From contig NZ_CANLOZ010000003.1 of the NCBI RefSeq assembly GCF_947492965.1, forward strand, positions 434,001 through 498,000: a DNA stretch of 64,000 nt, given 5' to 3'. Shown here one piece after another: positions 1,902-31,978 of this stretch; position 1 is the stretch's first letter, and the number at the start of each line of letters is the position of its first letter. Made by a program: the position numbers and the translations under genes. The DNA is from an uncultured Aquimarina sp. (GTDB lineage Bacteria > Bacteroidota > Bacteroidia > Flavobacteriales > Flavobacteriaceae). The notes under the pieces are model-generated. The model worked only from the letters and a program-made list of their open reading frames with translations. It was not told where the DNA came from and did no database searches.

Positions 1902-1903
1902 CA

Positions 1904-2947: not shown

Positions 2948-2954
2948 AAAAAGT

Positions 2955-4055: not shown

Positions 4056-5221
4056 GTGTAAATATCAACAAACATATCGCAGACATTCTTCAGCTCTACG
4101 AGTTTTCTATGTCCATAGGAAAGACGCTAGATTTTCATAAGAATTGTGATAACTTTCTGAAGCTATTGTTGGCCAGAAAAAACCTAAGTGGTTGCTGTGT
4201 AATCTCCAAAGAAGGAGATGACTTTACGAGATCTTATGCATATCCTGATGGATTGGTAGATGATAGAATGATAGAGCATAGTGGATTCCTTACAGATTGT
4301 TTTAAGGATGACACTATAAAAACCGGTATGTTTGAAGATAATACGAAGGAAATGGTTTCTTCCTGTAGAACACAAGGTTCCTGGTTGTTTTTTAACTTAA
4401 AAAACGATAAGGGATTGATGCTCATGAATCATAAAGGAACCCCATTTAATCAGGTAGAGATTAATCAGCTAACACCGATTATGGAAAAATTCTCGATTTC
4501 TCTAAAAGCCTGTGAATCCTTTATGAGAAGAGATAACTTACTAAAGAGATTAACAAAGCAAAATAAAGAGCTAAGAGAATATACACAGGTGATTTCGCAT
4601 GATTTAAAATCTCCACTAAGAAATATTGTTACTTTAATTGCCTGGACGAAAGAAGATGGAGAAAATCTTCAGGATGATGTTATGCAAAACTTAGAAAGTA
4701 TTGAGGATAACATCGAGAAAATGGATAACCTTATAAAGGGATTACATGCATATTCTACGATCGATAAGTTCGAAGAAAATGATAAAGAGATTGAGGTTGC
4801 AACATTTTTGGACGGAATTATAGAATCTTTAGAGGTTCCTGACAATATAGAAATCATGGTAGATAGTAATATCTCTACCTTATCGATACACCCAACACTC
4901 TTTCAAAACCTGTTTCAACATTTAATAAGTAATGCGGTCAATAGTATTGACGAGGAAAATAAAAAAGGAAAAATTAGTATTAACATAAAAGGAGAAGAAA
5001 CACAACTAAAATGTAGCGTTCAGGATAATGGAAAAGGAATACCAGAAAAATATCAAGAACGGGTTTTTGAGCTATTCGAAAGCATAGATTCTAAAAAGGA
5101 ATGCGTTGGAATTGGATTACCAATCATCAAAAAAATTATCGATTATTACGATGGTGATCTGCTATTAGAATCAGAAGAAGGTAAAGGAACCACATTTAGT
5201 TTCTCTTTAAAAAAAGAATGA
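4052..5221 (+). CDS. Sensor histidine kinase with GAF-like N terminus
   Basis: The 389-residue cytoplasmic kinase has an N-terminal alpha/beta region of about 150 residues that resembles a GAF domain (LARKNLSGCCVIS, then QGSWLFFNLKN). I assign this by general pattern only. HisKA follows near residue 175 (VISHDLKSPLR), and a HATPase domain ends the protein (HLISNAVNSI, DNGKGIP, GIGLPIIKKI). Its kinase core closely resembles those at 1 and 1904. It overlaps the upstream FIST gene by 4 bp and is followed 3 bp later by the Hpt gene. Confidence 0.9.
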   Translation: MSVNINKHIADILQLYEFSMSIGKTLDFHKNCDNFLKLLLARKNLSGCCVISKEGDDFTRSYAYPDGLVDDRMIEHSGFLTDCFKDDTIKTGMFEDNTKEMVSSCRTQGSWLFFNLKNDKGLMLMNHKGTPFNQVEINQLTPIMEKFSISLKACESFMRRDNLLKRLTKQNKELREYTQVISHDLKSPLRNIVTLIAWTKEDGENLQDDVMQNLESIEDNIEKMDNLIKGLHAYSTIDKFEENDKEIEVATFLDGIIESLEVPDNIEIMVDSNISTLSIHPTLFQNLFQHLISNAVNSIDEENKKGKISINIKGEETQLKCSVQDNGKGIPEKYQERVFELFESIDSKKECVGIGLPIIKKIIDYYDGDLLLESEEGKGTTFSFSLKKE

Positions 5222-5224
5222 ACT

Positions 5225-5545
5225 ATGAACGAAGCCCCAAATTTGTCGTACATTAAAGAATTATCAGCCGGATCAGAAGAATTTGAAGAAAAAATAATCG
5301 GATTGCTCAAAAGAGAATTTCCTGAGGAAAAAAATGAATTTTTGAATAATTACAACAGTAGTGTATTTAAAGCAGCAGCAGAAAATGTTCACAAATTAAA
5401 GCATAAGATCGGAATGCTTGGTTTTGAAGATGGATACCAGACTACGATCGCCTTTGAAGAAGGCTTACTTAAGGGAGAATATTCCTTATTTTCAAAATTT
5501 ATGCTTATTTTAGACTCCATTGATGAATTTCTTAAAAATTTATAA
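5225..5545 (+). CDS. Hpt (histidine phosphotransfer) protein
   Basis: The small helical protein of 106 residues contains VHKLKHKIGMLGF, which fits the Hpt signature H-x-L-K-x-x-x-x-x-x-G. His56 is the expected phospho-acceptor. It consists of an Hpt domain and nothing else. It lies 3 bp after a histidine kinase and 5 bp before a LytTR response regulator, so it is probably the shuttle between the operon's kinases and that regulator. None of the visible kinases carries a receiver domain, which an ordinary His-Asp-His-Asp relay would need. Either a receiver protein is encoded elsewhere or this Hpt acts as a phosphate sink or reverse-transfer partner. Confidence 0.85.
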   Translation: MNEAPNLSYIKELSAGSEEFEEKIIGLLKREFPEEKNEFLNNYNSSVFKAAAENVHKLKHKIGMLGFEDGYQTTIAFEEGLLKGEYSLFSKFMLILDSIDEFLKNL

Positions 5546-5550
5546 GGAGA

Positions 5551-6273
5551 ATGAATTGTATTATTATAGACGATGAAGAAGCAGCGAGGTTAATTATTGG
5601 TCAATTATGCACTCAGGTAGATGATCTGGATGTAATTGAAGAGTTTCCCAACGCCATTCAAGCTATCAAATTCTTGAATAAAGAGTCTATAGATCTTATA
5701 TTTTTGGATATTCATATGCCTGATTTTACAGGGTTTGATTTTATTCAAACCCTTAAGAATCCGCCTAAGATCATTCTAACTACCTCAGACAAGAATTTCG
5801 CTTTAGAAGCTTTTGAATATGAGTGTATTGTAGATTATCTAATCAAGCCTGTAACCTTACCGAGATTTTTAAAAGCCATTCAAAAAGCGGAAAGTACTCC
5901 TGCTTTGGATGTAGCTGCATCTTCATCGAGTACGGGAGAAGCTAAAGGCACAGGTTCTGAAGAAAATGATCTATATATCAATATTGATCGTAGATTAATT
6001 AAAATAGATATTCCTACTATTAATGTGATAGAAGCCAAAGGGGATTATATTCTTATTAAAACAGAAAAGCAAAATTATACAGTGCATTCTACTTTAAAAA
6101 AGATCGAAGAAAAACTTCCTGAAGATGTTTTTTTAAAAGTACATAGATCCTATGTGATTAACTTCAAGAAAATCATCGATATAGAAGATAACAGTGTATT
6201 AATCGCCAAAGATGTGATTCCTGTGAGTAGATCTAAGCGTCCTGAATTAATGAGACGATTAAATCTTCTATAA
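5551..6273 (+). CDS. LytTR family response regulator
   Basis: The 240-residue regulator has an N-terminal receiver domain (acidic pair IIIDDEE, phospho-acceptor Asp53 in FLDIHMPD, conserved Lys in DYLIKPV). A Ser/Thr-rich linker around residues 125-140 follows, then a LytTR DNA-binding domain (INVIEAKGDYILI, then VFLKVHRSYVIN). LytTR proteins bind as dimers to pairs of 9-bp direct repeats about 21 bp apart. A GGAG ribosome-binding site lies just upstream of the ATG. The gene ends the FIST/kinase operon and is followed by a terminator. Repeats of exactly this geometry occur upstream of the next genes (6831-6904 and 7751-7804), so these are likely targets. Confidence 0.93.
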   Translation: MNCIIIDDEEAARLIIGQLCTQVDDLDVIEEFPNAIQAIKFLNKESIDLIFLDIHMPDFTGFDFIQTLKNPPKIILTTSDKNFALEAFEYECIVDYLIKPVTLPRFLKAIQKAESTPALDVAASSSSTGEAKGTGSEENDLYINIDRRLIKIDIPTINVIEAKGDYILIKTEKQNYTVHSTLKKIEEKLPEDVFLKVHRSYVINFKKIIDIEDNSVLIAKDVIPVSRSKRPELMRRLNLL

Positions 6274-6326: not shown

Positions 6327-6830
6327 ATGCTTAATAATAAAGTTACCTTGGAGTATTCAAATCAATCAGTTTAAAAACACATAATTTTGATTTAATAGAG
6401 ACTATAATCATATATTCTTAGGATAAAATAGTTGCAGTTTTTGTTTTGGAAAAACATCTTCCCCCTTTTCTACCTAACAAGTTGGCATCATCATTATCAA
6501 TATTTCTTTTTAAAGGAAAGAAGCCAAAAGTCCTCCAGTAACTGAGATAGTCACAATAAAAAAATGTATGCATCTATTCTAGTATTAAAGTATCTCTTTT
6601 GTATTAATAAACGTACTATAAACTTTTCATTATCCTTAATTCGTCTTGAAATTGTTCTTTTAAATGATCGAAATTATTGTGCAGTTCGAAGATCGTTTAC
6701 TAGAATTACTTGTATATAAAAACAGTTTGTCGAATTTATAAAATTGATGGTTAAACAAGACGAATGCCATTTATCGAAAGTTTGCTGCTGTTAAACAGTT
6801 AATTACTACCATAAATCGAGTTTCGACGAA
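6327..6830. other. Long intergenic region with scattered LytTR-like half sites
   Basis: No convincing gene is seen here. The right-hand part contains isolated 9-mers that fit the LytTR consensus [TA][AC][CA]GTTN[AG][TC] without mismatch (ACAGTTTGT at 6722, ACAGTTAAT at 6795). It also has related ATCGA/GTCGA-ending copies at 6636, 6766 and 6808. The 6766 and 6808 copies are 42 bp (2 x 21) apart. Some of these could be chance in AT-rich DNA. Confidence 0.45.
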
Positions 6831-6904
6831 AATTTTCGTACACAATAACTTACATTTCGTCGATAGACATCTACCATTCGTCGAAAAATACAACCGTTAA
6901 TCGG
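6831..6904 (+). promoter_or_regulatory. Array of four LytTR-type repeats upstream of the metzincin gene
   Basis: Twelve-base units begin at 6831 (AATTTTCGTACA), 6852 (ACATTTCGTCGA), 6873 (ACCATTCGTCGA) and 6893 (ACCGTTAATCGG). The steps are 21, 21 and 20 bp. The first nine bases of each fit the published LytTR consensus with zero to two mismatches, and the last fits perfectly. The array lies 100 bp before the chosen start of the next gene and just downstream of the lytTR gene. Assignment to that regulator is inference. Confidence 0.65.
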
Positions 6905-7003
6905 TTATCTGAGTAATTTCATTGTAGGAAAAATATGGTATGCGCACTTTATGATTCCACGTTCTATTTTTTATTTACTAATAACCCTAAAAAGACATTT
7001 GCT

Positions 7004-7609
7004 ATGAGATATTTACTGTTTTTATTTTTACTGTTCTTATTACCTTCATGTGCTGTAGAAGACGACTACGTTCCAACATCTATAGAACCAATATTTATGG
7101 ATAATCCATCAGCAAAATTATTAGTTGATATTATCTATGTAGTACCTTCAAAAAACTATAATCAGTCAAAGTACGCAATGGATGAAACTAGATTTATGGA
7201 TTTTATCAATGGTTGTTTTTTTAATAGACATAACATTGGTTTCGAGATGGGAGAATCCAGAGTTCTTATTAATAGCGAGTTATACGATCTTAAGGATAAC
7301 AGAGATCAAGAATCCTCGGTATTCAATACAGAAACTCAGGATTCTTATAGACAAGATAGAATGAACATATATATCATTCCAAGAACAAATACGGTTGCTA
7401 TTGCAGGAATTGGACTGAAGCAAAGAGCATTAATAACTGATGAATTTTTATTCACTACGACTGCTCCACATGAAATAGGGCATGCATTAGGACTTTCTCA
7501 CAAAGAGGTAGAAGGAAACATTATGTGCAGAGTAAAACCTTACTTACGTAAAGAATTTGATAGTGATCAAGTAGATACGATGTATAATAAGATTTTAAGT
7601 ATCAACTAA
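7004..7609 (+). CDS. Metzincin-type zinc metalloprotease lipoprotein
   Basis: I chose ATG 7004 over the ORF-track start (6935) because it gives a clean lipoprotein signal, MRYLLFLFLLFLLPSC, with the lipobox cysteine at residue 16. The mature protein of about 185 residues carries HEIGHALGLSH, the HExxHxxGxxH zinc-binding motif of metzincins (matrixin/astacin clan), followed by NIMCR as the Met-turn. It is therefore probably a small, lipid-anchored surface or periplasmic protease. The substrate is unknown. It is a single-gene unit, preceded by LytTR-type repeats and followed by a terminator. Confidence 0.87.
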   Translation: MRYLLFLFLLFLLPSCAVEDDYVPTSIEPIFMDNPSAKLLVDIIYVVPSKNYNQSKYAMDETRFMDFINGCFFNRHNIGFEMGESRVLINSELYDLKDNRDQESSVFNTETQDSYRQDRMNIYIIPRTNTVAIAGIGLKQRALITDEFLFTTTAPHEIGHALGLSHKEVEGNIMCRVKPYLRKEFDSDQVDTMYNKILSIN

Positions 7610-7750: not shown

Positions 7751-7804
7751 TACCTTTATCGAGGTCAGAAAACCACTCACCTAATCAACAAAACCATTCA
7801 TCGA
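7751..7804 (+). promoter_or_regulatory. Three 21-bp-spaced LytTR-type repeats
   Basis: Units start at 7751 (TACCTTTATCGA), 7772 (ACCACTCACCTA) and 7793 (ACCATTCATCGA), exactly 21 bp apart. The second matches the third at 9 of 12 positions. The array lies just upstream of a good -7 element at 7834, in position to activate the type IX secreted protein gene. Confidence 0.68.
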
Positions 7805-7833: not shown

Positions 7834-7841
7834 TACTTTTG
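7834..7841 (+). promoter_or_regulatory. Bacteroidota -7 promoter element
   Basis: TACTTTTG fits TAnnTTTG. Transcription would start near 7846, downstream of the TTG codon at 7839 used by the ORF track. This favours the GTG at 7869 as the translation start. Confidence 0.6.
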
Positions 7842-11957: not shown

Positions 11958-14030
11958 TTACAATCTTAATTTTTCAATCTTTTTATTAAAAAGTGGTTTT
12001 TCTAAGAAGTACCATTTTAGTTTAAAACCAATTTCAGTAAATTCAAAACCGGCAGCAGTTGCAGAAGCTATATTACTATACTTTCCATAAATGTGAGCCA
12101 TAAATCTTTCAGAAAAATGATGACCAATTTTTCCTTCTGCTCTAAAGGTAGTAGAAGCAGGATCTTCTTCTACAAACTGGCGTCCTACAGCTGCACTTAA
12201 ACTATAAAACCAATCATTATTCTGGTCATTCAACAATTCAGCAAAAACTTCTACTAAATGAAATGATGACGGACTGAAATAAATGGTTGGTACTTGATCT
12301 TTAAAAGAAATATACTGATAATTAATACCGGTTTTTAGAACAGGTCTGTTTAAAATATTATAGTATAATGAAGTGAACAATAAATTTCTGGTATTATCAT
12401 CGGATTGAGTTGTATATATGGCCTGAGTATACCATCCTAAATTAATGTTGGTACCAAGGTTATAATTTATGGAGTAATTATTCATGATAATTTCTCTATC
12501 AATAAGATCTGCATTAAAATTTTGTAATTCTCTTTTGTAACCAAAATCTAAACTCTGAAGTCTGAAAGGTTTGGTGCTAATAATCACTTCACCAATGACA
12601 CCTGTATAACTGGTTGTATTTGCATCAGATGCATTAAATCCAAGATTTGCTTTTAATCCTATCCTGCCTCCAAATTTATAATCCAACCCAATTAGAGCTT
12701 CTTGGGACTCGGCTTTACTACCTGTTTCAGTATTTTCTGTAGTTCTAAAAGAATAGCTGCCTCTTATTTTTAGTTTTGGAGATAGTGGTATTTCAGTATT
12801 AAAATTGGTACTTATGGCTTCATTATTGCCATTATCAAAAGTATATGCCGTCCTATTTTCTATAAAAGGCGTATGAGATTTTTTTAAGGTAGCGATTAGT
12901 TTTTCTGCATCGGGTTGTTTTGGATAAAAGAATAAAGTTTTAAAGGCAAATTCATAAGACTTCATGTCTAAACCAGATGCTCTATATGCATTGGCGATTC
13001 CCAAATTACCATCGAATGAGCTTTCGCTTTTAGCAAGAATTTTTTGATATTGATCCAGACTCAGTCCAAAATCACTAGTATACATTCCTAAAGTAGCTCG
13101 TAAACTTAAAAGGTTAGTACTTTCTGGATATTGTTTTTCAAATTCTAATAATGTGCTCTTTGCTTCTTTAAACTTTTTATTCCAGAATAAGGCCTGGATA
13201 TAGCGTTCGTAGGATGATATCAGAAGATTCTCATCTGATGGAGATAATTTTTTCGCTTTACGAAGTGCTTCACTTGCCTGTTCTAATGCTTTCTTTTCTT
13301 TAAATCTTTTGTGAGATACTAACGATAGTCCTTGTAAAGAGGTAATACTATCTTTAGGGTTTGTAGCAATCGTACGGTAAGCTTTTTCTGCATTATCATA
13401 CTGTTCTAGAATGATATAGATATTAGCTTGATTTAGCAAGGTGTCTTTATCTTCAGGGAAATCATTTAGATTTTGCTCTAATAGGTTTAATGCTTCTTCG
13501 TATTCTTTATTCTGGGATAGTGTGAAAGCATATCCTAGTCTAATGTATTTTCTAGAAATCAGAGCATTTGGATTTCCTGCTTGTATCGATAATGCTTTAT
13601 TAACAGTCTCCAGCGCTTGGGGATATTTTTTTAGGTTAGAAAGGGTATTTGCATATCCTAGTACCGCTGCAAAACTAGTACTGTTTTCTTCCACTATAGT
13701 TTGATAGTAGGTTTCCGCTTTTTCATAATTCTTATTCCATAATAAAGACTCTGCATAGTTTAGTTTTATTTCATAGTCATTTGGATATATACTTTTTAGT
13801 TCTGTAAAAAGAGCAACTGCTTTTTCCGATTCTCCTAATAGTCCTATTGCACGCCCATAACATAATTTTGCAGTTCTGTTATCGGGATAATTTTTAAGGA
13901 TACCTTCAAAAAAGGACTTGGCTTCTTGGTAGCGACCATTTTCTAGATAACCAAACCCTTCTTTCATATCTTGACCATTGGTCAAGGTTATTACAAAAAG
14001 AAGGAAAACCAAAAGTATTTTTTTGTTCAT
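11958..14030 (-). CDS. TPR protein with C-terminal outer-membrane beta-barrel (YaiO/PgaA-like)
   Basis: The start was moved from 14084 to ATG 14030 because this gives a typical signal peptide, MNKKILLVFLLFVITLTNGQ. The 690-residue product has about ten tetratricopeptide repeats up to roughly residue 400. The last 280 residues alternate polar and hydrophobic positions and are rich in aromatic residues, ending in LKWYF, as in an outer-membrane barrel. The YaiO family has this end. TPR plus barrel is also the architecture of exopolysaccharide export porins (PgaA, BcsC, PelB). It is divergent from the STAS/flippase/GT genes 870 bp away, which fits an export-porin role, but this is inference. Confidence 0.82.
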   Translation of the reverse strand: MNKKILLVFLLFVITLTNGQDMKEGFGYLENGRYQEAKSFFEGILKNYPDNRTAKLCYGRAIGLLGESEKAVALFTELKSIYPNDYEIKLNYAESLLWNKNYEKAETYYQTIVEENSTSFAAVLGYANTLSNLKKYPQALETVNKALSIQAGNPNALISRKYIRLGYAFTLSQNKEYEEALNLLEQNLNDFPEDKDTLLNQANIYIILEQYDNAEKAYRTIATNPKDSITSLQGLSLVSHKRFKEKKALEQASEALRKAKKLSPSDENLLISSYERYIQALFWNKKFKEAKSTLLEFEKQYPESTNLLSLRATLGMYTSDFGLSLDQYQKILAKSESSFDGNLGIANAYRASGLDMKSYEFAFKTLFFYPKQPDAEKLIATLKKSHTPFIENRTAYTFDNGNNEAISTNFNTEIPLSPKLKIRGSYSFRTTENTETGSKAESQEALIGLDYKFGGRIGLKANLGFNASDANTTSYTGVIGEVIISTKPFRLQSLDFGYKRELQNFNADLIDREIIMNNYSINYNLGTNINLGWYTQAIYTTQSDDNTRNLLFTSLYYNILNRPVLKTGINYQYISFKDQVPTIYFSPSSFHLVEVFAELLNDQNNDWFYSLSAAVGRQFVEEDPASTTFRAEGKIGHHFSERFMAHIYGKYSNIASATAAGFEFTEIGFKLKWYFLEKPLFNKKIEKLRL

Positions 14031-14785
14031 ATACCGTATTTGGAATAACAAGTTACTAATATTTTTTGAAGATAAATTCTCCATAGAATATAATACTTGT
14101 AAGTTAAGTTTTTGAGTTAATATTAAAAATATAAACGTACTTTTTTTGAGGGAATATTCAACTTTATAAGACGGAATTCTCCCTTTTAGTAAAAAAAGAT
14201 TCAGTTTTAAATGTTAAAAAAAGAGGTAAAAAGAGGTTTTTTATACTTTAAAAAGTTAATTAAATGTTAATTTTATCGATTAAAGGCATTTAAAACCGTT
14301 GTAATACATGATTTCTTGTCAAGACCTTACTAAAATTACGGTTTTACAGTATTTATTTAAAAGATAATACATTTAACTTTACAGTAAGTTGATTCATAGT
14401 TATTTATATTCAGCTTAGTCGTCATAAATTAAAAGAATAAATCTTCGGTTGCCCTTCGAAGAAAGTAGAAATTAAAATGATTAATTTATAACAACAACAA
14501 CACTTTTACCTTGTTTTTTACAACAAATAAAAGCAAGGCCCCAAAATCTTAAACAACAATGAATACAATCCACATCATTATTCCTTTTCGCGACACATAG
14601 TTTTATAGGATCTAGCAAAAGTTTTGGAATGAAGAAATCCTTTGCTAAAGTGCTTTTGAAGAACGTATATGATTTAAAAATATATGTTATGTATTCTTTA
14701 AAAAACTTTTAGACCAATTTATGATAGTATATAGTTCTATTGCACAATACCATAGATGTTTGTTTTAAAATGGCGCTGATGGTAA
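14031..14785. other. Long divergent intergenic region
   Basis: No convincing gene is seen. There is one micro-ORF at 14559-14600 (13 residues, ending IIIPFRDT). It resembles the first strand of a glycosyltransferase and could be a leader peptide, a remnant or chance. The region separates the TPR/barrel gene from the STAS/flippase operon and probably holds both promoters. Confidence 0.35.
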
Positions 14786-14818
14786 ATACTTCATCTAATG
14801 ATATTTGTCATTCGTCGA
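14786..14818 (+). promoter_or_regulatory. Pair of LytTR-type repeats upstream of the STAS genes
   Basis: ATACTTCATCTA at 14786 and GTCATTCGTCGA at 14807 are 21 bp apart and share the core TTCrTCkA. They lie 83 bp before the first STAS gene. The match is weaker than at 6831 and 7751, and no perfect -7 element follows. Confidence 0.5.
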
Positions 14819-14900
14819 TCATAAAAAGTATCTGGTCTAAAACAAGAGAATATTGTAGAAAAGAATAAAGATATTGAGAGTAATCAAAAACTAAATTATT

Positions 14901-15197
14901 ATGGCCCTAAAAATAACACACCGATACGGAATTTTTGAACTAGAAGGAAATGTAGTAGGTAAGAACGCTTTATCTGTAAAAAATCATTTCGAACAATTAA
15001 TGCTTTCGTCAGAGCAAATCGTATTATCCTTGGATAAGGTAAAGAGGATTGATACGCAAGGAATCCAAGTACTTAGCAATTTATACAGAAGAGCAGTTAA
15101 AAACAATAAGATATTCTATTTGATTGGAGCAGAGAATGCCATTATAAAAAAGGCCTTTGGTAAAGTAAATTATGTTATAAGAAAGGAGTCTCTGTAA
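14901..15197 (+). CDS. STAS domain protein
   Basis: The 98-residue protein has the STAS (anti-sigma-factor antagonist-like) pattern: a beta-strand start, then IVLSLDKVKRIDTQGIQVL. In SpoIIAA-type proteins the phosphorylated Ser/Thr sits in the D-S/T-x-G loop, and here DTQG supplies a threonine. There is no partner kinase or sigma factor nearby. The gene is first in a run of STAS, STAS, flippase and, after a gap, GT4, so it may act as a local switch on exopolysaccharide assembly rather than on sigma factors. Confidence 0.78.
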   Translation: MALKITHRYGIFELEGNVVGKNALSVKNHFEQLMLSSEQIVLSLDKVKRIDTQGIQVLSNLYRRAVKNNKIFYLIGAENAIIKKAFGKVNYVIRKESL

Positions 15198-15225
15198 TTA
15201 TTACTAATCCCAAAATTAGCCCCAA

Positions 15226-15525
15226 ATGGAATTAGAAATAAATAATGTAAGAGGACGCATGGAAGTAGTAGGAGATTTTACTTCCGAGAATGTCCATAAG
15301 GTAAAAGATCATTTTAATTACTTATTAGATCATTATGAAGAAGTAGTAATGTGTCTAAAAAAAGTAAAGAAGATAGATAAAAAAGCTTTACAGGTGTTAC
15401 AAGGCATTTATGCCAAAGCGCAGCGTAGAAAGAAAGTATTATTTGTATTAGGAAAGAAAAATAAGAAGGTGTTTATGACCTTAAAATCAAATAAACTCAA
15501 CCATATTTTTAGAAATGACTATTAG
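15226..15525 (+). CDS. STAS-like protein lacking the phospho-acceptor
   Basis: The 99-residue protein is a paralogue of the preceding STAS protein (same length, same spacing, VVMCLKKVKKIDKKALQVL). The D-T-Q-G loop is replaced by D-K-K-A, so the usual phosphorylatable residue is absent. It is very basic at the C terminus. It starts 28 bp after its neighbour, and its last 11 bases overlap the flippase gene, indicating translational coupling. It may be a non-switchable partner or membrane-adaptor version of the first STAS protein. Confidence 0.75.
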   Translation: MELEINNVRGRMEVVGDFTSENVHKVKDHFNYLLDHYEEVVMCLKKVKKIDKKALQVLQGIYAKAQRRKKVLFVLGKKNKKVFMTLKSNKLNHIFRNDY

Positions 15526-16744
15526 CACATTGGTTCCAAAACTAACATCAGAGCAAAAATTTATGCTTAGTGTTATCGTAGTGAATGCTGGGAATTATCT
15601 TTATAACCTTTTGTTAGGAAGAATTCTTGGTCCAGAAATGTTTGCAGATGCAGCCTTGTTGATCACTTTTTTGTTAGTGTTATCCTTTGTTGCTATGACT
15701 TTTCAATTAGCTACGGCAAAATTTTCTGTGTTGTTTGAGAATGCTACTTTTAAAAGTTTCATTGCTCTTATTTATAAATATGCAGGTATTACTGGTATTG
15801 TCATCGGAGCCGCTATGGTTGTATTTTCTGGAGAGTTACAGCAATTATTTAATACTAAATCTTCTTTGATGTTTACCATTTTTGGATTGGGAGTACCTGT
15901 GTATTTTATCATGAGTGTAAATCGTGGTTTTTATCAAGGTACCAAACGATTCGAAAAACTTGCCTGGACCTATCAGGGAGAAATGTTTAGTAGATTAGCC
16001 ATTACACTTTTATTGATTTTTACCATCACTACCGTAAGCTCATCAATTTTAGTAGTCATAGGAATCTTTGCATCCTTCTTTTTTGGGTTATTACCATTTA
16101 AGAAAGAAAACTTTGTGCTTAAGGTAAAGAATGTACTAAGTAAAGAGCAGTCTAGTCAGATTAGTAAGTTTTTTGTGCTTACTGCATTTTATGAGTTGAC
16201 TCAGATCATTATCAATAATAGTGATATCTTATTAGTGAAGCATTATTTCCCAGAATATGATGCAGGATTATACGCCTCTTTAGCATTAATCGGACGTGTA
16301 GTCTATTTTGTTACCTGGATGTTTGTAATGCTATTACTTCCAGCGGTTATAGAAAAGAAAAAACTAGGAGAAGCTACTGCACCAATTTTGGTTAAATATG
16401 TTGGTTATGTAGTAGGTCTAGCATCCGTTGTTGTTTTAGGATGTTATCTATTTCCAGAATTAGCGATTCATTTATTATTTGGTGATGCATACCTATCTAT
16501 GGCTCCTTTATTATGGAAATACGCTATAGCAACAGCATTATTTGCGGTGTCTAATATATTCGCGTACTATTTTTTGTCATTGGATCAATATATGCCTGTA
16601 GTCGTTTCTGGTTTATTAGGAATTTCACAGATTTTACTCATCGTATTTTTTCATAGTTCTTTATTAGAAGTGGTGGTTGTGCAGATAATTGCGATGGCTG
16701 TTTTATTAGTAATTCAGTTGATATACTTCTTTTTTAAAAAGTAG
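15515..16744 (+). CDS. Oligosaccharide flippase (MOP/Wzx-like)
   Basis: The 409-residue integral membrane protein has about 10-12 hydrophobic segments across its length. It has the general pattern of MOP-superfamily polysaccharide flippases (GNYLYNLLLGRILGPEMFADAALL near the N terminus). Such proteins move lipid-linked or nascent glycans across the inner membrane. It is slightly shorter than typical Wzx proteins. It overlaps the second STAS gene by 11 bp and is followed 121 bp later by a GT4 glycosyltransferase, a combination also found in Pel-type exopolysaccharide loci (PelG/PelF). Confidence 0.85.
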   Translation: MTISTLVPKLTSEQKFMLSVIVVNAGNYLYNLLLGRILGPEMFADAALLITFLLVLSFVAMTFQLATAKFSVLFENATFKSFIALIYKYAGITGIVIGAAMVVFSGELQQLFNTKSSLMFTIFGLGVPVYFIMSVNRGFYQGTKRFEKLAWTYQGEMFSRLAITLLLIFTITTVSSSILVVIGIFASFFFGLLPFKKENFVLKVKNVLSKEQSSQISKFFVLTAFYELTQIIINNSDILLVKHYFPEYDAGLYASLALIGRVVYFVTWMFVMLLLPAVIEKKKLGEATAPILVKYVGYVVGLASVVVLGCYLFPELAIHLLFGDAYLSMAPLLWKYAIATALFAVSNIFAYYFLSLDQYMPVVVSGLLGISQILLIVFFHSSLLEVVVVQIIAMAVLLVIQLIYFFFKK

Positions 16745-16865
16745 TAATGAAATAGATGAAAGAAGTAAAAATGTTATTGATCGAAGTAAAACGGTAACCC
16801 AACGAATATCAAAAGACAAATAGATAAATAAAAAAGAAATTTACATCAACATACAATCAAAACAC

Positions 16866-18089
16866 ATGAAATTAGCAATCGTAACAGCATATCCACCAAG
16901 TAAGGTGACTCTAAATGAATATGCATTTCATTTAGTAAAACATTTTAGACAGCAAGCGGAAATTACAGAATTGGTTTTATTAACTGATATTACCGAAGAA
17001 GAAGCAAATTTAGATTTTGAAACAGAAGGTTGCAGCGTTACTGTAAAACAATGTTGGAAATTTAATAGTTATAAGAGTATTAGAACTGTCATGAAAGCAG
17101 TTAAAGAGACAAAACCTGAAGCTATTTTATTCAATCTTCAGTTTATGAAGTTCGGAGATAAAAAGATAGTTGCGGCACTAGGACTGCTATTACCGTTCTT
17201 ATGCAAAATGAAAAAGATACCAACGATTGTCTTATTACATAATATCATGGAACAGGTAGATCTAGGCAAAGCTGGTTTTACAAATAATGTTTTCTTAAAA
17301 GCAATTTTCAATTTTATTGGAACAGTCTTAACAAGGTTTGTTTTAGCTTCCGATCGTGTGGCAGTAACGATTAGTAAATATGTGGAAATATTAGAGAAAA
17401 AATATAACGCGAAGAATGTGGTTTTGATTCCTCATGGAACTTTCGAAATTCCCAGAGAACCTTCGTACGAATTACCAGAAGGACCATTAAAAATAATGAC
17501 TTTCGGAAAGTTTGGGACTTATAAAAAAGTAGAAATCTTAATCGATGCTGTTAAAAAAGTGAGAAAAGAAACCGGAGTGGATCTGGAAGTGGTCATCGCG
17601 GGAACCGATAACCCGAATACACCAGGATATTTAGAAAATGTACAAAAACAATATCAGGATATACCACAGCTAACATTTACAGGCTATGTAGAAGAAGAAG
17701 ATGTGCCAGTAATTTTTGGAGAAAGTGCTATGGTAGTATTTCCATATACATCTACTACTGGAAGTTCTGGAGTATTACATCAGGCAGGAAGCTATGGGAA
17801 AGCAGTGGTAATGCCGGATTTAGGAGACCTGAGCATATTAGTAAAAGAAGAAGGATATAGAGGTGAGTTTTTTGATCCTCAAAGTACGGATAGTTTGGCT
17901 ACAGCAATACAAAAGATCGTGGTAGATAAAGCATATAGAAATCAATTGGCAAAAGCAAATTATCAAGCGGCTACCGCATTTCCAATGAGCAGGATAACCA
18001 AAATGTATATAGACTCATTTAAAAGTATTAAAAACGGAAAAAGTAAGAAAAAGAAAGAGGAAAAAGAATTACAAGGAATATCGGTTTAA
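16866..18089 (+). CDS. Glycosyltransferase family 4-like protein
   Basis: The 407-residue protein has two Rossmann-like halves: an N-terminal acceptor domain (MKLAIVTAYPPSK, VLLHNIMEQ) and a C-terminal GT-B domain (KIMTFGKFGTYKKVEILIDA, then LTFTGYVEEEDVPVIF). This is the family GT4 pattern. The usual E-x7-E nucleotide-binding motif is altered: the segment reads TTGSSGVLHQAGSYGKAVVMP, without the first glutamate. The C terminus is a lysine-rich tail that may contact membrane lipids. It probably adds sugars to the polymer handled by the upstream flippase; donor and acceptor are unknown. Confidence 0.85.
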   Translation: MKLAIVTAYPPSKVTLNEYAFHLVKHFRQQAEITELVLLTDITEEEANLDFETEGCSVTVKQCWKFNSYKSIRTVMKAVKETKPEAILFNLQFMKFGDKKIVAALGLLLPFLCKMKKIPTIVLLHNIMEQVDLGKAGFTNNVFLKAIFNFIGTVLTRFVLASDRVAVTISKYVEILEKKYNAKNVVLIPHGTFEIPREPSYELPEGPLKIMTFGKFGTYKKVEILIDAVKKVRKETGVDLEVVIAGTDNPNTPGYLENVQKQYQDIPQLTFTGYVEEEDVPVIFGESAMVVFPYTSTTGSSGVLHQAGSYGKAVVMPDLGDLSILVKEEGYRGEFFDPQSTDSLATAIQKIVVDKAYRNQLAKANYQAATAFPMSRITKMYIDSFKSIKNGKSKKKKEEKELQGISV

Positions 18090-18166
18090 GTACTGTCATT
18101 ATCTTAATAGAATGACTTAAGCCATAATAATTAAGTGTTTTGATGTTTTTTTCAAAAAGATGTTTT

Positions 18167-19711
18167 TCAATAACTTATAAATTGGAAAGCATCTTTTTTA
18201 TTTCCATCTGCATCAATAAATCCAAAATGCTTTTGTGCATTTTTTCTCCAAGGCAATCTTCCAACTACATCTGTTGGGATTTTATTAAAATCATACAATG
18301 TCCAAGATAAATAGTGTAATTCATGTTGTTGGATGATTTTTAAAAATGCCTCATGATACGCTGCCTGATCTTCTTCATTATTCCCGAAGGGAGCCCACAA
18401 TCCTTTATCAGAAGACAACCCAAATTCTTGCAAAACGAGTGGCTTTTCTAAAGATGATATAGTTTTAAAGATATCCTGAAACTGAGTCAAATCTTTATAA
18501 TAATGAAAAGATACAATATCCACATCTTCACTCAGAATATCTGCAGTTTCTATAGAAGACCAACCAATAGTTATGGGATGTTCTGTATCTATAGTGCGTA
18601 TTTGATGAATCATTTCTTTTAACCAGGCAAGAACGGTTTCTTTTGTTCTGCTTTCAAAATCAAGATTAGGTTCGTTTTTTATATCCCACATAAGAAGCGC
18701 TGGGTGCTCTTTGATACTACTTACGATTTGCTCAGCATGTCTATGCGTAAAGGTCCAATCGTTTATATCATAATTACCATAGAAATCGAAGAGCGTAAGT
18801 ACGACTTTTAGACTATTCTTTTCTGCCAGATCCATCACTTCTTTTAGCTTTATGAGTTTGTCTGCTAGTACATATTCTTTGCCAAAATCTTCGTAGGGAA
18901 CAAATATTCTGATGGTATTTAATCCAGCATCTTTAATAATTTTAAAATCCTTTTGGATAATATCAATATCAAATTCTTCACCAAACATATTCCATGGAGT
19001 ATCTTGCGGATAATAATTGATACCTTTTATTTGATAAGGTGTATTGTCTACAATAATTTGGTTTCCTCGGATATATGGAGATTCTTTTTGTGTATTGGTG
19101 TCAATAACTGTGATATTAGGTTGTTTTACAATATGTCGTACTCTCCAAAACCCGTCTTCTAGAAGCATTGCAATTTTATAACTTGCTACCGAAGTAGTTT
19201 CATATTGCAAGTTGTTTTCTTTAAAACTTTGGGTGTAAGATCTTACGTTTTGATCTTCAAATACTACTAACTGCCCATCTGCGCTATAAAAGTCTAGAGC
19301 AAGATGATGGTCTAATGTGGTACTCACAATTTGTACGTCATTTGTCTTATTAAAATGAATTCCATCAACTAAGTTCTTTCGGGCGCTTTCGGTATAAAAA
19401 TCAAAAATACCTAAGGAGTCATAAGTAGCATATCCTACGTTTCTAACGTACCACGAATTCACATAATCTTTTTGGATATCATACATGGTTTGTTTTTCGA
19501 TCGGTCGAGCAGGATTTATAGTGTCTTTCCATTCGACTTTGGGAATATACGCTTGCTTATTTTTCACACCGATATGTAGCATCATAGAACGATCTGCACC
19601 AGTGCTAAGAAATGATAACGTTTGACTTATTCCAAAAAGGATTAAGGCATTTATAGCAATAAATGATGTGATAATGAAAGACCTGTATATCATTTTATTC
19701 TTTTTCTTCAT
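18167..19711 (-). CDS. Membrane-anchored glycoside hydrolase, GH5/GH2-type barrel
   Basis: The 514-residue protein has one N-terminal membrane segment (SFIITSFIAINALILFGI). A region of about 200 residues without a clear fold follows, then a TIM barrel from roughly residue 225 (IKGINYYPQDTPW). The barrel shows the clan GH-A features NTIRIFVPYED, the acid/base glutamate in WDIKNEPN (about residue 340), and the nucleophile glutamate in VLQEFG (about residue 430). It is probably a periplasmic endo-glycosidase that trims or releases the polymer made by this locus. Its start overlaps the preceding gene by 4 bp (same strand), so the three minus-strand genes form one operon. Confidence 0.85.
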   Translation of the reverse strand: MKKKNKMIYRSFIITSFIAINALILFGISQTLSFLSTGADRSMMLHIGVKNKQAYIPKVEWKDTINPARPIEKQTMYDIQKDYVNSWYVRNVGYATYDSLGIFDFYTESARKNLVDGIHFNKTNDVQIVSTTLDHHLALDFYSADGQLVVFEDQNVRSYTQSFKENNLQYETTSVASYKIAMLLEDGFWRVRHIVKQPNITVIDTNTQKESPYIRGNQIIVDNTPYQIKGINYYPQDTPWNMFGEEFDIDIIQKDFKIIKDAGLNTIRIFVPYEDFGKEYVLADKLIKLKEVMDLAEKNSLKVVLTLFDFYGNYDINDWTFTHRHAEQIVSSIKEHPALLMWDIKNEPNLDFESRTKETVLAWLKEMIHQIRTIDTEHPITIGWSSIETADILSEDVDIVSFHYYKDLTQFQDIFKTISSLEKPLVLQEFGLSSDKGLWAPFGNNEEDQAAYHEAFLKIIQQHELHYLSWTLYDFNKIPTDVVGRLPWRKNAQKHFGFIDADGNKKDAFQFISY

Positions 19712-20940
19712 TCTAATTCGATGCGATCATATTTTTTATGTACTCCCATTCCCTTGATCTCTAAGGTATAAATTCCCTTTGGAAAGAAATCCTCGGATAG
19801 GTGAAAATTCACAAATCCTTTGGATGAAAATTCAGTTATCGTTTCAATTAATTGATCATTCTGATAGATATCCAAAGTGATTAGAGCTCCATCTGGTATG
19901 ATTTGATCCATGAAACTTACAATAGGACCAATTTCTATAGTTCTATTTTGTTCTTTAAAAAAGACCTTATAATCAGAAACGGCAGCTTCAAAATTTAGTT
20001 CGATACTATTACTTTCTGCCATTTCAGGAATAAAAGCCTGAGCATTCCAGGTTGATTTTTGATCAGGATGCACCATAAAGCCTTTTGCTACACCATCTAT
20101 GGTAGTTCCTGAGGTGCGTAACCTTTCTTTATTGTCCTTTAGAATGCTAAATTCTACAATACGACCATCACTGATAATGTTCCCAAATTCATCTTTTATT
20201 GTTGAGGTAAAAAATTCTGCAATTTGATTGCCGTCAGCATAATTATGTTTTGTGTTCACAAATAATTCAAAATCCTGTCCTTGAGAAGGGAATACATCCA
20301 ATGAAAACTCTTTAGAGGGGATGTTATCCAAATTTGCACTTACCAGTATTCTTCCAGATTTTTCATAGGAAAATATGTTTTTCCAAACGATAAAATCTTT
20401 ACTGTAAATATCATCGTCAATTTCTTTGTCTAAGAATTGATGTTTGACGACGATTAGAGTGCTATCCTTCACAGGATTATCGTAGCGATCTGAAGCAATG
20501 ATGGAAAGCATACTGTAATCAGTACCTCCTGCAGTAATGCTTGGAGGACCTAAGTAAGATTCTAATGGTTCTTTTATATCAGTCATCGCAGTAATGTAGC
20601 ATTCTCCAGTATATATGTTTTTTTTGTTTTTAACGAGATGATAATTAAGTATTCCTCTCTTTTTAGATACAAATTCTGGGATTTTAAAAACTACAAAATC
20701 AAGCTGTTTTTCTGGTGTAAGTAATGTAGTGCCATAAGAACTTTGGATTGCTAATACCAAATTTTCTATGGTATCGTATTTAAATTTTAAAACGATTTCT
20801 TCTCCGGCGGTATATTCATCTTTTGCATCGAATAGAACAATTTCCTTATCCATAACAGTATCCGTATGGGTTGTGTGGATCGTAAATCCAAAAACCAATA
20901 CAATTGCAACTAACAGATATGGATAAATATTTAATTTCAT
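19708..20940 (-). CDS. Exported protein of unknown function with Ig-like segments
   Basis: The 410-residue protein has an N-terminal hydrophobic segment (MKLNIYPYLLVAIVLVFGFTI), either a signal peptide or an anchor. The rest is beta-rich and has the look of several bacterial Ig-like or macroglobulin-type domains (EYTAGEEIVLKFKYD, ADGNQIAEFFTSTIKDEFGN). No catalytic motif is seen. It is coupled to both neighbours, sharing one base with the upstream membrane protein and 4 bp with the glycosidase. I infer a periplasmic scaffold for the polysaccharide machinery. Confidence 0.7.
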   Translation of the reverse strand: MKLNIYPYLLVAIVLVFGFTIHTTHTDTVMDKEIVLFDAKDEYTAGEEIVLKFKYDTIENLVLAIQSSYGTTLLTPEKQLDFVVFKIPEFVSKKRGILNYHLVKNKKNIYTGECYITAMTDIKEPLESYLGPPSITAGGTDYSMLSIIASDRYDNPVKDSTLIVVKHQFLDKEIDDDIYSKDFIVWKNIFSYEKSGRILVSANLDNIPSKEFSLDVFPSQGQDFELFVNTKHNYADGNQIAEFFTSTIKDEFGNIISDGRIVEFSILKDNKERLRTSGTTIDGVAKGFMVHPDQKSTWNAQAFIPEMAESNSIELNFEAAVSDYKVFFKEQNRTIEIGPIVSFMDQIIPDGALITLDIYQNDQLIETITEFSSKGFVNFHLSEDFFPKGIYTLEIKGMGVHKKYDRIELE

Positions 20941-23900
20941 TAATAAGGAGCTCCGATATAATTGTTTATTTCTACTTTTATATAATCATATCCTTTGCCT
21001 TCGATAGGGATGAGGATATAATCATCTTGTTTAATTCGTCTATTAGGTGTTACTTTATGACTGATTGCTTTATTAGGTAATCCATTTATATAAATATTTT
21101 CCATATCCTGACTTAAGGAATTGATACATTCTAACTCTTTTAATTCAAATTCGAACACCTTTTTACGTTGAGGTCGGATACCTTCTCTTACATAAGAATG
21201 ATCAACCCAAATGAGTTCTTTATCACTGTTGTAATAAGAAATAATTAATTGAGGTATAGTAACTTCTTGTAAACCAGAGTTGAATAAAATACCTCTAACT
21301 TTCTTGTTACTTATTTTAATTTCAGAGATCGATAGTCCTTTGTACAAATCAGTGGTAGCAACATTTCCTGCGCATTGCAAATTAAAAGTGGTCGGTATAT
21401 CAGCGAGTTCTATAGCTGTAAATTCATCTGGGTTAAAAGTTTTAGGTTTATCAGAATTCATCCAGGCAATTCCCTCAAAATTAACTCTAAAACTGGTAAT
21501 CTCTTTAGGTACAAGTTTGTGTTTTATTTGATCTTTAGCATTATAAATAGCTAATTCTTCATTTTCCTTATTATATAAAGTTGCTTTTATAACTACGTCT
21601 GCAGGCACATTGTCAACATTTTGTATCTCACCTACAATGGTATAGGTAGTGTCATTCTGAATTAGATTGGCTTTCAGAACCTCCAGCACTGGTTGTTTCA
21701 ATACATCTTCATGGAAAGTTTGTTCAGAAGAGATTCGTCTTCTTCCATGGTTATAGAATTGCGTTTTGTTTTGCGAAAACAATTGATCCGGTGGAATATC
21801 AAGATCATAATTAGGAGGTTTTACAAACCACTTTCCTTTATGCTTCACCAATTCATGATAAAATACTTTATCAATACGTTCTAATGGAGTAATCCAGTAG
21901 GTAGTAGCTTTGGCTTTTGCTGTACTATCTGTTTGTTCCAAAATATCAACAGTAATCTCATCCATTTTGGCATAAGAACTTAATAAACCATCCGTTACTG
22001 CTATTTCTAGCATATATTGTTCTTCCTTTTTATCACTTTCGGGATCTATATAGCTGTAAGCTCGTTTAAATTCTTTAAAATCCAGCGCATCATAATAGGA
22101 TTTGACTATGTTTTCTGGACTAATTTGTGTGGCATTTTTGAGATAGAAAATATAAAATCCAAAAGCTATCACACCTAATAGGAAAACAACCCAAATATGT
22201 TGTAGACGGATCATATAATTTTTGAAATCACCATATTGAATACGATAATTATAAAAGTCAAGGAGACTTCGTTCTTTTGTTTTTAAGGCTCTTATCCAAA
22301 TGAATTGTATGTTGATGATAAAGGCAATAAGTACAGTAGTTACAGGAATAAGTCCCCACATTAATTTTAGAGGTAATGCCACATCATCTTTAGGGATAAT
22401 ATTAGGAATGGGTGGGACATTTAGTTTTTCCCATACCATAATCCCATTTTCTAGTTGTCTTAGACGTTGCCAACCACAGAAGAAGAGAACTGGATCATAA
22501 AACTTATCATTGGAGAATACGTATTTGAGATTGTATTTCTCTGGTACAGTTAAGAATTGCTGTAAAGAGCCAATGCCTTCTACGCCTCTAAATTTAGAAT
22601 TCTCTAATCGTTCTACGGCTCTCGATGTTAGTTCGGGAAGTCTTCTTGCAGAGTGGTAGTTACCATCTACGGTCATGGCATTCGTTTGCGCAGAAAGCCA
22701 TGCCATCTGATCGCCAAACCCCAACGGAAGGTACCGCCAGTGATCGTGTTGATCTTGTTTTAGGAAATTTAAGATTGGAAGCATTTTAATTTTCTGTGGC
22801 TGCGAAGGTCTAAAATAACCCAAACTCATCGTAAAAATGCAGACAAAAATATAAGCTCCAGCAAAAGCTCCTCCGAGGATTCGGTGATACACGCTTCCAA
22901 ATTTTTGTTGAATTTTATTTTTTATATCACCTTCTATAAATCGATAACAAAATTCACCGAAGATAGGAAGTGCCATAATAGAACCCCAAAGAGTAAATCT
23001 ATCCAACGTAAGAATATTAAAGGCATTATCCCCCAACATCATTTTTGGGATTGGAGTGGTGCCACCAGTTCCTAGAATACTTAATAAGGTAAGTGAAAGG
23101 CCAAAAAACAAGTATCGTTTACTATAATATCTATAAAATAAATAGGGGAAAATAAATAAAATAATACCCCAAGGAATTGTGAAAAACACCAATCCAGAAG
23201 AAGTAACTTCTAAGAAATTATCTCTTGAACCATGAGGAATAGGGACCTGAGTGATAGGGTTATTCTTGGTATTAATCCAGTAGGGTAGGATACAAAAAAT
23301 AATAAGGAATAAAGAACCGAAACCAAAACTTACAATTCTCCAAAACAGCTTAAAGAAAGTTTGTAGAAAATGTTTAAATCGTACTGCTCGATAGGAATCA
23401 ACCTTGTCTTTTGCACTATCCATGATTACCATACCGATTAACGGAAATATAAAAAATACCATTCCAAAAATAGGAGTAACATGATGCGAGGTAACAGTAA
23501 CCGCTAATAAACTAAATGCTCTAATTAAATAGGTATACTTACCGGTTTTAATCCATAAATATATTTCTGGTAATGCGTGCATTAAAACGGAAACACCTAC
23601 AATACTTGGCAGTTGTCCGAAGATATGAAGCGTTTCTACAAAAGAAGATGAAAATACTGCAACAAGTGCAGCATAACCCGCCACATTCCTTTTGCCAGTT
23701 ATTAGAAGAGAATATCGATATACTCCGGTTATAAAAAGTAAAATAGCAATGAAAGCCACAGAAAATAGACCAAACTTAAGTCCGCCGATTAATGAAAACA
23801 GTCCAATGCTTTGATGTACCAGAGGAGGATATCCCTGAACCGTAAACCCTGTATACCAACTATAACTCCATGGATCGAACCAGCTATTGGCATAGTGATC

Positions 23901-24026
23901 GGCAAAGAAAAGATGAATTAAGGCATCATAAGTAGTTTCTATGGTAAAGAAGATACTAGATCCATGGAATAAGATCCCAATAAGTATTGCACTAATTAAA
24001 TATTTGTTTGTGTTTTTTTTATCCAT
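20940..24026 (-). CDS. Large polytopic membrane protein, PTPS-related type
   Basis: The 1,028-residue protein has about ten membrane segments in the first 400 residues and one or two more near 555 and 610. A soluble C-terminal region of about 400 residues follows, with mixed alpha/beta and beta-sandwich character. The N-terminal half (DALIHLFFADHYANSWF, QGYPPLVHQSIGL) resembles the membrane family annotated as 6-pyruvoyl-tetrahydropterin synthase-related, which looks like GT-C glycosyltransferases. Loop acidic residues near the N terminus would fit GT-C catalysis. It is first in the operon with the Ig-like protein and the glycosidase and divergent from a GT2 gene that could supply its lipid-linked sugar. 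Confidence 0.75.
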   Translation of the reverse strand: MDKKNTNKYLISAILIGILFHGSSIFFTIETTYDALIHLFFADHYANSWFDPWSYSWYTGFTVQGYPPLVHQSIGLFSLIGGLKFGLFSVAFIAILLFITGVYRYSLLITGKRNVAGYAALVAVFSSSFVETLHIFGQLPSIVGVSVLMHALPEIYLWIKTGKYTYLIRAFSLLAVTVTSHHVTPIFGMVFFIFPLIGMVIMDSAKDKVDSYRAVRFKHFLQTFFKLFWRIVSFGFGSLFLIIFCILPYWINTKNNPITQVPIPHGSRDNFLEVTSSGLVFFTIPWGIILFIFPYLFYRYYSKRYLFFGLSLTLLSILGTGGTTPIPKMMLGDNAFNILTLDRFTLWGSIMALPIFGEFCYRFIEGDIKNKIQQKFGSVYHRILGGAFAGAYIFVCIFTMSLGYFRPSQPQKIKMLPILNFLKQDQHDHWRYLPLGFGDQMAWLSAQTNAMTVDGNYHSARRLPELTSRAVERLENSKFRGVEGIGSLQQFLTVPEKYNLKYVFSNDKFYDPVLFFCGWQRLRQLENGIMVWEKLNVPPIPNIIPKDDVALPLKLMWGLIPVTTVLIAFIINIQFIWIRALKTKERSLLDFYNYRIQYGDFKNYMIRLQHIWVVFLLGVIAFGFYIFYLKNATQISPENIVKSYYDALDFKEFKRAYSYIDPESDKKEEQYMLEIAVTDGLLSSYAKMDEITVDILEQTDSTAKAKATTYWITPLERIDKVFYHELVKHKGKWFVKPPNYDLDIPPDQLFSQNKTQFYNHGRRRISSEQTFHEDVLKQPVLEVLKANLIQNDTTYTIVGEIQNVDNVPADVVIKATLYNKENEELAIYNAKDQIKHKLVPKEITSFRVNFEGIAWMNSDKPKTFNPDEFTAIELADIPTTFNLQCAGNVATTDLYKGLSISEIKISNKKVRGILFNSGLQEVTIPQLIISYYNSDKELIWVDHSYVREGIRPQRKKVFEFELKELECINSLSQDMENIYINGLPNKAISHKVTPNRRIKQDDYILIPIEGKGYDYIKVEINNYIGAPY

Positions 24027-24106
24027 CCAATAACCGTAAGCGGAAACTTCCCTTTAAATATAAACTAAAGTTTGCTAAAACTAAATATACAATAAAGCTT
24101 TTGGAT

Positions 24107-24146
24107 TCGACGAGTGGTATGTCTTTAGACAAAAACCATTCGTCGA
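24107..24146. promoter_or_regulatory. Divergent pair of LytTR-type elements
   Basis: A minus-strand copy ACCACTCGTCGA (complement of 24107-24118) and a plus-strand copy ACCATTCGTCGA (24135-24146) face outward between the divergent PTPS-related operon and the GT2 gene. They differ at one base. The plus copy is identical to the unit at 6873. Confidence 0.6.
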
Positions 24147-24229
24147 TAGCTTTTTTTCAGTGATCGAAATAGTCCAATATTCGGTGCCGCTTCAACATAC
24201 TTTTGAATCAAAACCCAAAAGAATGTATC

Positions 24230-25048
24230 ATGAAAACTGGAATTATTATACCATGTTATAACGAGGAAAAAAGATTAAATAAAAATGCGTTTATCAAATT
24301 TGTACAACAGGAAAATGAATATTATTTATGTTTTGTGAATGATGGAAGTAAGGACAACACCATCCATGTGTTAAAGGAAATACAAGAAGCAAATCCATCT
24401 AAGGTGAGTATTATAGATATGAAAAAAAATGGAGGGAAAGCCGCCGCTGTAAGATCAGGATCTAGATATTTTTACAGCAATCATCATATAGATTATATAG
24501 GATTTATTGATGCTGATCTCTCTACTGATTTTGAGGATTTTGGTGACTTAGTAAAAACTTTGGAAATAAATAATGAATTAAATTTTGTATTTGGTTCTAG
24601 AGCTAAAAATGCATCTAAAGCCATAGAAAAAGATAAGATACGAGCGCTGATCTCTAAAGTAATAAATATATTAATTGTTTTAATCGTGGGTTTGTCCATT
24701 AGCGACACACAATGTGGAGCAAAAGTTTATAAGGCAGAATTAGTACCTATTCTATTTACCGAGAGCTTTTTGAGTAAATGGCTTTTTGATGTAGAAATGT
24801 TTATTAGAATGAAACGGTATTTTGGAAAATCCAAAATAACCAAAGCGATATATGAACAGCCTCTAAAAAGATGGGTGCATATTGAAGATTCTAAATTAGG
24901 GTTGAAGGATTCTTTAGAAATTCCATATCGGTTAATCTTGATTTGGTTTAATTATAATGTGATATCAACATTTACCATTAATCCTTCTATTACTTATGAG
25001 CCTTTGTTGGAAATATATGGAAATACAACGCAGCCAATTGCAGCATAG
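24230..25048 (+). CDS. Glycosyltransferase family 2, polyprenyl-phosphate hexose synthase type
   Basis: I chose ATG 24230 (MKTGIIIPCYNEEKRL) because the GT2 fold begins immediately there; the ORF-track start is an upstream TTG. The 272-residue product has the GT-A features CFVNDGSKDNT, the NGGKAAAVRSG segment and DADLST as the metal-binding DxD-like motif, then the SDTQCGAKVY segment typical of DPM1/GtrB-like enzymes. These make polyprenyl-phosphate sugars on the cytoplasmic face. That is the donor type used by GT-C enzymes, so it fits the divergent membrane protein at 20940 as a partner. No C-terminal membrane pair is seen. Confidence 0.88.
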   Translation: MKTGIIIPCYNEEKRLNKNAFIKFVQQENEYYLCFVNDGSKDNTIHVLKEIQEANPSKVSIIDMKKNGGKAAAVRSGSRYFYSNHHIDYIGFIDADLSTDFEDFGDLVKTLEINNELNFVFGSRAKNASKAIEKDKIRALISKVINILIVLIVGLSISDTQCGAKVYKAELVPILFTESFLSKWLFDVEMFIRMKRYFGKSKITKAIYEQPLKRWVHIEDSKLGLKDSLEIPYRLILIWFNYNVISTFTINPSITYEPLLEIYGNTTQPIAA

Positions 25049-31975: not shown

Positions 31976-31978
31976 TAC

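Follow-up and report, generated by a model that had tools for sequence, protein, structure and literature searches.

Direct repeats at 21-bp spacing and a LytTR response regulator beside sensor and presumed exopolysaccharide genes of an Aquimarina sp.

Genes and operators of the locus

The window, that is, the whole stretch of 64,000 nucleotides analyzed here (C3:434001-498000), belongs to the 5.54-Mb genome (40 contigs) of an uncultured Aquimarina sp. The following genes are relevant to the repeats, those for the sensors being assigned from Pfam matches and ORFs.

768-1901, + strand: FIST/NosP-like gene
1904-2947, + strand: kinase gene
2955-4055, + strand: FIST gene
4052-5221, + strand: kinase gene
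5225..5545, + strand: Hpt phosphotransfer protein (PF01627 just at the cutoff of 24.6 bits; VHKxKHK conserved)
5551..6273, + strand: LytTR response regulator, presumed binder of the repeats (PF00072 6e-18, PF04397 7.6e-20)
7004..7609, + strand: metzincin-like lipoprotein (M10), presumed target (PF00413 8.7e-07; LLPSC lipobox in the sequence)
11958..25048, mixed strands: presumed exopolysaccharide cluster (Pfam/NCBIfam; gene order conserved) with a TPR protein (-), STAS, flippase-like, GT4, GH2-like (-), two unassigned (-) and GT2 genes

A response regulator gene, an H-NOX gene and the start of kinase HK1 lie upstream of the window. Together, the operon C3:432554-439545 (L020:18554-20000 plus window 1-5545) holds H-NOX, two FIST/NosP-like proteins, three histidine kinases, a stand-alone receiver and Hpt, an unusually stacked candidate nitric oxide phosphorelay that is found in many Flavobacteriaceae genera with a varying number of FIST-kinase pairs. 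The H-NOX protein matched PF07700 at 7.5e-40, and its haem-pocket residues H102, H104, P117, Y133 and S135 were invariant in 52 sequences. The FIST/NosP-like proteins carry the generic FIST and FIST_C domains and scored 64.7 bits against the curated NosP model NF041558, below its cutoff of 450. The domain content of these sensor genes, including the kinases and Hpt, suggests a nitric oxide input.

In related loci, the gene order of response regulator, H-NOX, kinases, FIST-kinase pairs (in many loci), Hpt and LytTR is kept, and it is often followed by a T9SS-type gene, a TPR protein, STAS, flippase-like and glycosyltransferase genes and further polysaccharide genes. In locus L110, the Hpt-LytTR gene pair is tandemly duplicated, with a 21-22 bp operator after each copy.

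The LytTR protein combines receiver and LytTR domains, both above the Pfam cutoffs, with the phospho-acceptor D53; D53 and HRS..IN were invariant in 61 sequences. Its closest named relatives, at 80-84% identity, are from Aquimarina species; in PDB searches, it matched relatives by the receiver domain and a single LytTR structure (3d6w, E = 2e-4). With a receiver domain of its own, and with Hpt and kinases as neighbors, it does not belong to the LytTR Regulatory System (LRS) type. It is the sole recognized DNA-binding protein of the conserved sensor operon.

Unit scores come from a matrix that was trained on 61 loci and reaches about 19 bits at most (listing threshold 2). Apart from the metzincin promoter, the following sites were listed in the window.

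7751..7804, + strand: three-unit operator 7751/7772/7793 (steps 21, 21; scores 2.3, 14.8, 17.6) preceding the DUF6923/T9SS gene, with the -7 box TACTTTTG at 7834-7841
14786..14839, + strand: operator 14786/14807 with a third, degenerate unit at 14828 (scores 7.2, 16.9, 4.5), ahead of the STAS/flippase genes; its position matches in 42 aligned STAS1 promoters
16773..16805, + strand: operator 16773/16794 (scores 9.4, 7.6) before the glycosyltransferase gene 16866; matching position in 40 aligned GT1 promoters
24135..24167, + strand: operator 24135/24156 (scores 18.4, 3.4; exact consensus copy) before the GT2 gene, with the -7 box TACTTTTG at 24198-24205
24107..24118, - strand: strong single unit ACCACTCGTCGA (score 17.3), ahead of the divergent 24026(-) operon; no clear second unit was seen

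For GT2, the TTG given as its start overlaps with the predicted -7 box, and translation probably begins at ATG 24230 (MKTGIIIPCYNEE). At 14901-15525, two adjoining small STAS-type proteins head the flippase/glycosyltransferase genes, both here and in several related loci; no anti-sigma partner of this pair was recognized. Elsewhere in the window (30971-34444), a predicted AAA-type ATPase (334 aa) adjoins a subtilisin-like protease (821 aa), possibly a defence-type pair.

Repeat units at the metzincin promoter

An earlier note, made from the letters of the window, had placed a LytTR operator of four units ahead of the metzincin gene. The array indeed precedes this gene; it is not specific to it, as the locus has at least six such operators. 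The units considered are given below.

6722..6733, + strand: ACAGTTTGTCGA, possible distal unit (score 8.4), 44 bp ahead of 6766
6766..6777, + strand: GCCATTTATCGA, upstream unit (score 13.9), 42 bp ahead of 6808
6808..6819, + strand: ACCATAAATCGA, upstream unit (score 3.6, weak), kept in L133, L144 and L137
6831..6842, + strand: AATTTTCGTACA, unsupported unit of the earlier note (score below 2; not conserved)
6852..6863, + strand: ACATTTCGTCGA, core-pair unit (score 11.2), kept in Aquimarina metzincin promoters
6873..6884, + strand: ACCATTCGTCGA, best unit (score 18.4), 21 bp past 6852; conserved
6893..6904, + strand: ACCGTTAATCGG, doubtful unit (score 5.0), coinciding with the expected -33 position
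6914..6921, + strand: TAATTTCA, predicted -7 box, 41 bp from the start of unit 6873

The four 12-mers at 6831, 6852, 6873 and 6893 are present with the steps described (21, 21 and 20 bp), and 6852 and 6873 proved strong; the better unit 6766 and the conserved unit 6808 had been overlooked, 6831 was not upheld, and 6893 proved weak. Unit 6831 was rejected on score, on conservation and on the signal in foreign loci. The observation is thus real in its core, while only part of the listed array stands: the supported array consists of 6766, 6808, 6852 and 6873, with 6722 and 6893 doubtful. In three relatives from Aquimarina that share this metzincin gene, equivalents of 6808, 6852 and 6873 are kept, those of 6808 (L133, L144, L137) lying 44-45 bp ahead of the core pair. 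A partner spaced by 20 bp, as for 6893, was also present in L137. With one 44-bp and one 20-bp step, the metzincin promoter is irregular. Inverted repeats were also examined, and nothing specific was seen.

The [TA][AC][CA]GTTN[AG][TC] 9-mer, expected 0.08 times per 183 bp in the window, occurs on the + strand at 6722, 6777, 6795 and 6893. Three of these had been named before, and one of the four (6777) had been missed. As a unit, the perfect 9-mer at 6795 scored below 2 and was likewise rejected, with conservation and foreign signal also failing. The AgrA-type G at unit position 4 is not borne out either, as the true unit ACCATTCRTCKA has A there: the core units read CATT rather than CGTT, and the AgrA-type pattern fits only the four 9-mers above. 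This excludes the AgrA-type sequence alone and not the wider family, because the sequences of LytTR repeats vary widely (PMC6193735).

Spacing, conservation and promoter distance

Since a matrix derived from the sites of this locus makes any local ranking circular, foreign loci were used instead, comprising up to 20 kb around 60 LytTR orthologs, 59 of them from other genera. Genome-wide statements refer to pattern searches and to 464 kb of scanned sequence.

In the 5.54-Mb genome, the exact 12-mer ACCATTCGTCGA occurs twice, at window positions 6873 and 24135. A genome search for two units 21 bp apart, of the kind proposed in the earlier note and run with ≤ 3 mismatches to the consensus, yielded three places, all in this locus and within 10 kb: C3:432420/432441, 6852/6873 and 7772/7793. 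The first lies 1.6 kb ahead of the window and precedes the first gene of the sensor operon. The reversed pair pattern gave zero hits in the same 5.54 Mb, and the arrangement thus exceeds chance.

Stepping by two helical turns was recovered in the foreign orthologous loci from the window-derived motif alone. Searching the 59 other-genus loci with ACCATTCGTCGA only (3 mismatches) yielded 20 pairs at 21 bp; other spacings averaged 0.19 pairs, and each of 20 shuffled 12-mers used as controls gave 0-1. With ACATTTCGTCGA alone, no 21-bp excess was observed in foreign loci at 3 mismatches (1 pair), and 52 pairs against a mean of 20 were found at 4 mismatches. The 12-mers of 6831 or 6893 as queries gave no 21-bp signal in these loci. 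With the own-genome matrix, 56 pairs were counted at 21 bp, and no other spacing exceeded 4. The refined matrix produced 160 pairs at 21 bp, 14 at 22 bp and 19 at 42 bp (a double step of 2x21), with 0-5 at most other spacings and 3 pairs when reversed. No pair above the threshold was found in 4 of the 60 family loci (L086, L118, L122, L123). In 80 named loci, which come partly from the same genomes, all 80 contained pairs; 153 had the 21-bp spacing, and no other spacing had more than 4. The local 21-bp steps at 6852/6873, 7751/7772/7793 and 14786/14807 agree with this family peak of 21-22 bp.

Pairs stand before the first gene of the operon in 77 of the 79 named loci where that gene is seen, and further pairs follow LytTR or precede STAS/flippase and glycosyltransferase genes. 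Nearly all are oriented along the direction of transcription. The units are short and degenerate, and weak matches are plentiful in low-GC intergenic DNA, as would suit incidental periodic DNA or local duplications without any regulator. This explanation has next to no chance of being correct: it is already contradicted by the conservation tests, with the 21-bp peak across many genera, the orientation bias, the promoter distance and the reversed and shuffled controls all against it.

Of 201 genomes drawn from the whole family, 83, the own genome included, encode a LytTR ortholog (54-82% identity; next matches about 40-49%). Outside the family the ortholog is rare, with one match (45% identity) in 149 class-wide genomes, the own genome and a family member aside. 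In a mismatch-tolerant scan with a background of about 0.4-0.5 per genome, genomes with the ortholog (n = 83) contained 3.36 tandem sites on average, compared with 0.53 in the control; the 118 genomes without it contained 0.58 compared with 0.42, an excess that was not significant. Sites and ortholog co-occurred over the 201 genomes (p = 3e-24, kinship ignored). About a dozen further LytTR response regulators are encoded in the own genome (13 matches), and one of these paralogs, or another regulator from elsewhere, might read the repeats while the local LytTR has different targets. This appears improbable, as most of the 118 genomes without the ortholog hold other LytTR genes and still show no significant site excess, and as arrays lie in the promoter of the ortholog's own operon in 77 of 79 named loci.

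The flavobacterial sigma-A -7 box spans -12 to -5 (PMC9723704). TAnnTTTR boxes were concentrated 41-42 bp past the start of the last unit, which accordingly lies at about -53 to -42, upstream of -33. Boxes at 62-64 bp from unit 1 in T9-type promoters, and at 83-84 bp in first-operon-gene promoters, have a second or a degenerate third unit (TnAACGA) in between. At the metzincin promoter, TAATTTCA aligns with TAACTTTA, TAGCTTTA and TAATTTTA of three relatives, with +1 then expected close to 6926 and -33 close to 6893. Unit 6893 thus falls on the -33 position, and it more probably represents a coincidental or accessory match.

The same geometry bears on the sign of regulation. If LytTR acted as a repressor, the units would block RNA polymerase and phosphorylation would lift the block, as compared with CoxC, where a three-repeat LytTR operator overlapping -35 represses (PMC11347149). 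The location of unit 6893 at the predicted -33 would suit such a role. However, this unit is weak, and the last unit of the family consensus, starting 41-42 bp before the -7 box, ends upstream of -33 in the position usual for activators, so that repression is considered unlikely.

Proposed regulation and comparison with known systems

The reading of the repeats as a LytTR operator was thus sustained by the 21-bp peak in foreign orthologous loci, the promoter positioning and the co-occurrence with the LytTR ortholog. The sites match the canonical LytTR plan, which makes activation the preferred interpretation for both the sensor operon and the polysaccharide cluster, and very probably the LytTR response regulator binds the repeats and activates its own operon together with an exopolysaccharide regulon. 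Each unit of about 12 bp, (A/T)(C/T)CATTC(A/G)TC(G/T)A, would hold one LytTR domain, and two or three direct units 21 bp (two helical turns) apart would align a phosphorylated dimer or oligomer along a single face of the helix. From this position, which borders the -33 region of a sigma-A promoter on its upstream side, LytTR would activate transcription of its own operon, of the genes that follow it (secreted metzincin, T9SS) and of the downstream exopolysaccharide genes. Gaps of at most 46 bp, or overlaps, separate the genes from response regulator to LytTR, so the first-gene operator should also drive lytTR, which would amount to autoregulation.

The phosphorelay probably runs from kinases through Hpt to LytTR and may be modulated by the H-NOX and FIST/NosP-like proteins, in which case nitric oxide probably sets the output; we infer the phosphoryl flow and the identity of the polysaccharide from domain content. 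That such a nitric oxide-sensing phosphorelay controls biofilm polysaccharide at the promoter, through LytTR and 21-bp-phased operators with autoregulation included, rather than through c-di-GMP, and that it is common among marine Flavobacteriaceae and rare elsewhere in the class, is to our judgment an evenly balanced proposition.

Distal members of the regulon are less certain, as is the single-unit site at 24107. The distal candidate sites inspected in the own genome were C1:701353, C1:1007114 and C2:615579. Two paralogous secreted proteins on C1 (L004:1480-2818 and L005:209-1533) share a gliding-type C-terminus (VSPNGDG), and upstream of each lies a consensus unit that may be paired with another one 21 bp off. 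At L008:1470-1515 (C2:615558-615590, - strand), a candidate distal target, ACCATTCGTCTA is followed 21 bp on by TTTATTAACCGA, and TACCTTTC lies 41 bp from the first unit, ahead of an unassigned 150-aa ORF.

In the canonical LytTR site, two 9-bp repeats in direct orientation are separated by 10-13 bp, giving steps of 19-22 bp; such sites usually lie upstream of -35 and activate (PMC11347149). The operator appears to be of this standard kind, and the surrounding circuit appears to be new. Like the sites of AgrA, ComE and S. mutans HdrR/BrsR (PMC6193735), it has direct repeats with a 9-bp core about two turns apart, adjoining the promoter upstream. The S. mutans LRS sites, e.g., ACCACTTAT-12 bp-ACCGCTTAT, drive positive autoregulation (PMC6193735), as shown for HdrR, and the core ACCACTTAT is very similar to ACCATTCRT here. 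In contrast to these systems, the present unit is conserved over 12 bp, has a conserved linker (CACTTAA/CAGTAAA) and commonly occurs in threes; position 4 is A, not the G of the AgrA type. Unlike HdrR/BrsR, the regulator joins a receiver to its LytTR domain and would act within a phosphorelay, without the LRS membrane inhibitor. RcoM/CoxC (PMC11347149) shares the LytTR domain, three direct repeats two turns apart and a tie to diatomic gas sensing; its repeat sequence differs, and it senses CO within the same polypeptide, whereas the candidate gas sensors of Aquimarina (H-NOX, FIST) are separate and would act via kinases.

A defined operator with a candidate regulator and regulon is now available for a Bacteroidota receiver-LytTR protein, and the extended consensus and the fixed promoter distance make regulon prediction possible in dozens of genera. 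No description of an H-NOX-LytTR circuit was found in the open-access literature, an absence that is weak evidence. The H-NOX/NosP circuits of Vibrio, Shewanella, Legionella and Burkholderia resemble the present one in having the sensor gene beside histidine kinases and a link to biofilm, with most described outputs running via c-di-GMP enzymes (PMC8738867, PMC12570481); in Aquimarina, the output would be transcriptional, by a LytTR factor whose operators stand at presumed exopolysaccharide genes. If H-NOX and FIST feed this regulator, marine flavobacteria would link nitric oxide to exopolysaccharide transcriptionally, unlike the c-di-GMP circuits of Proteobacteria.
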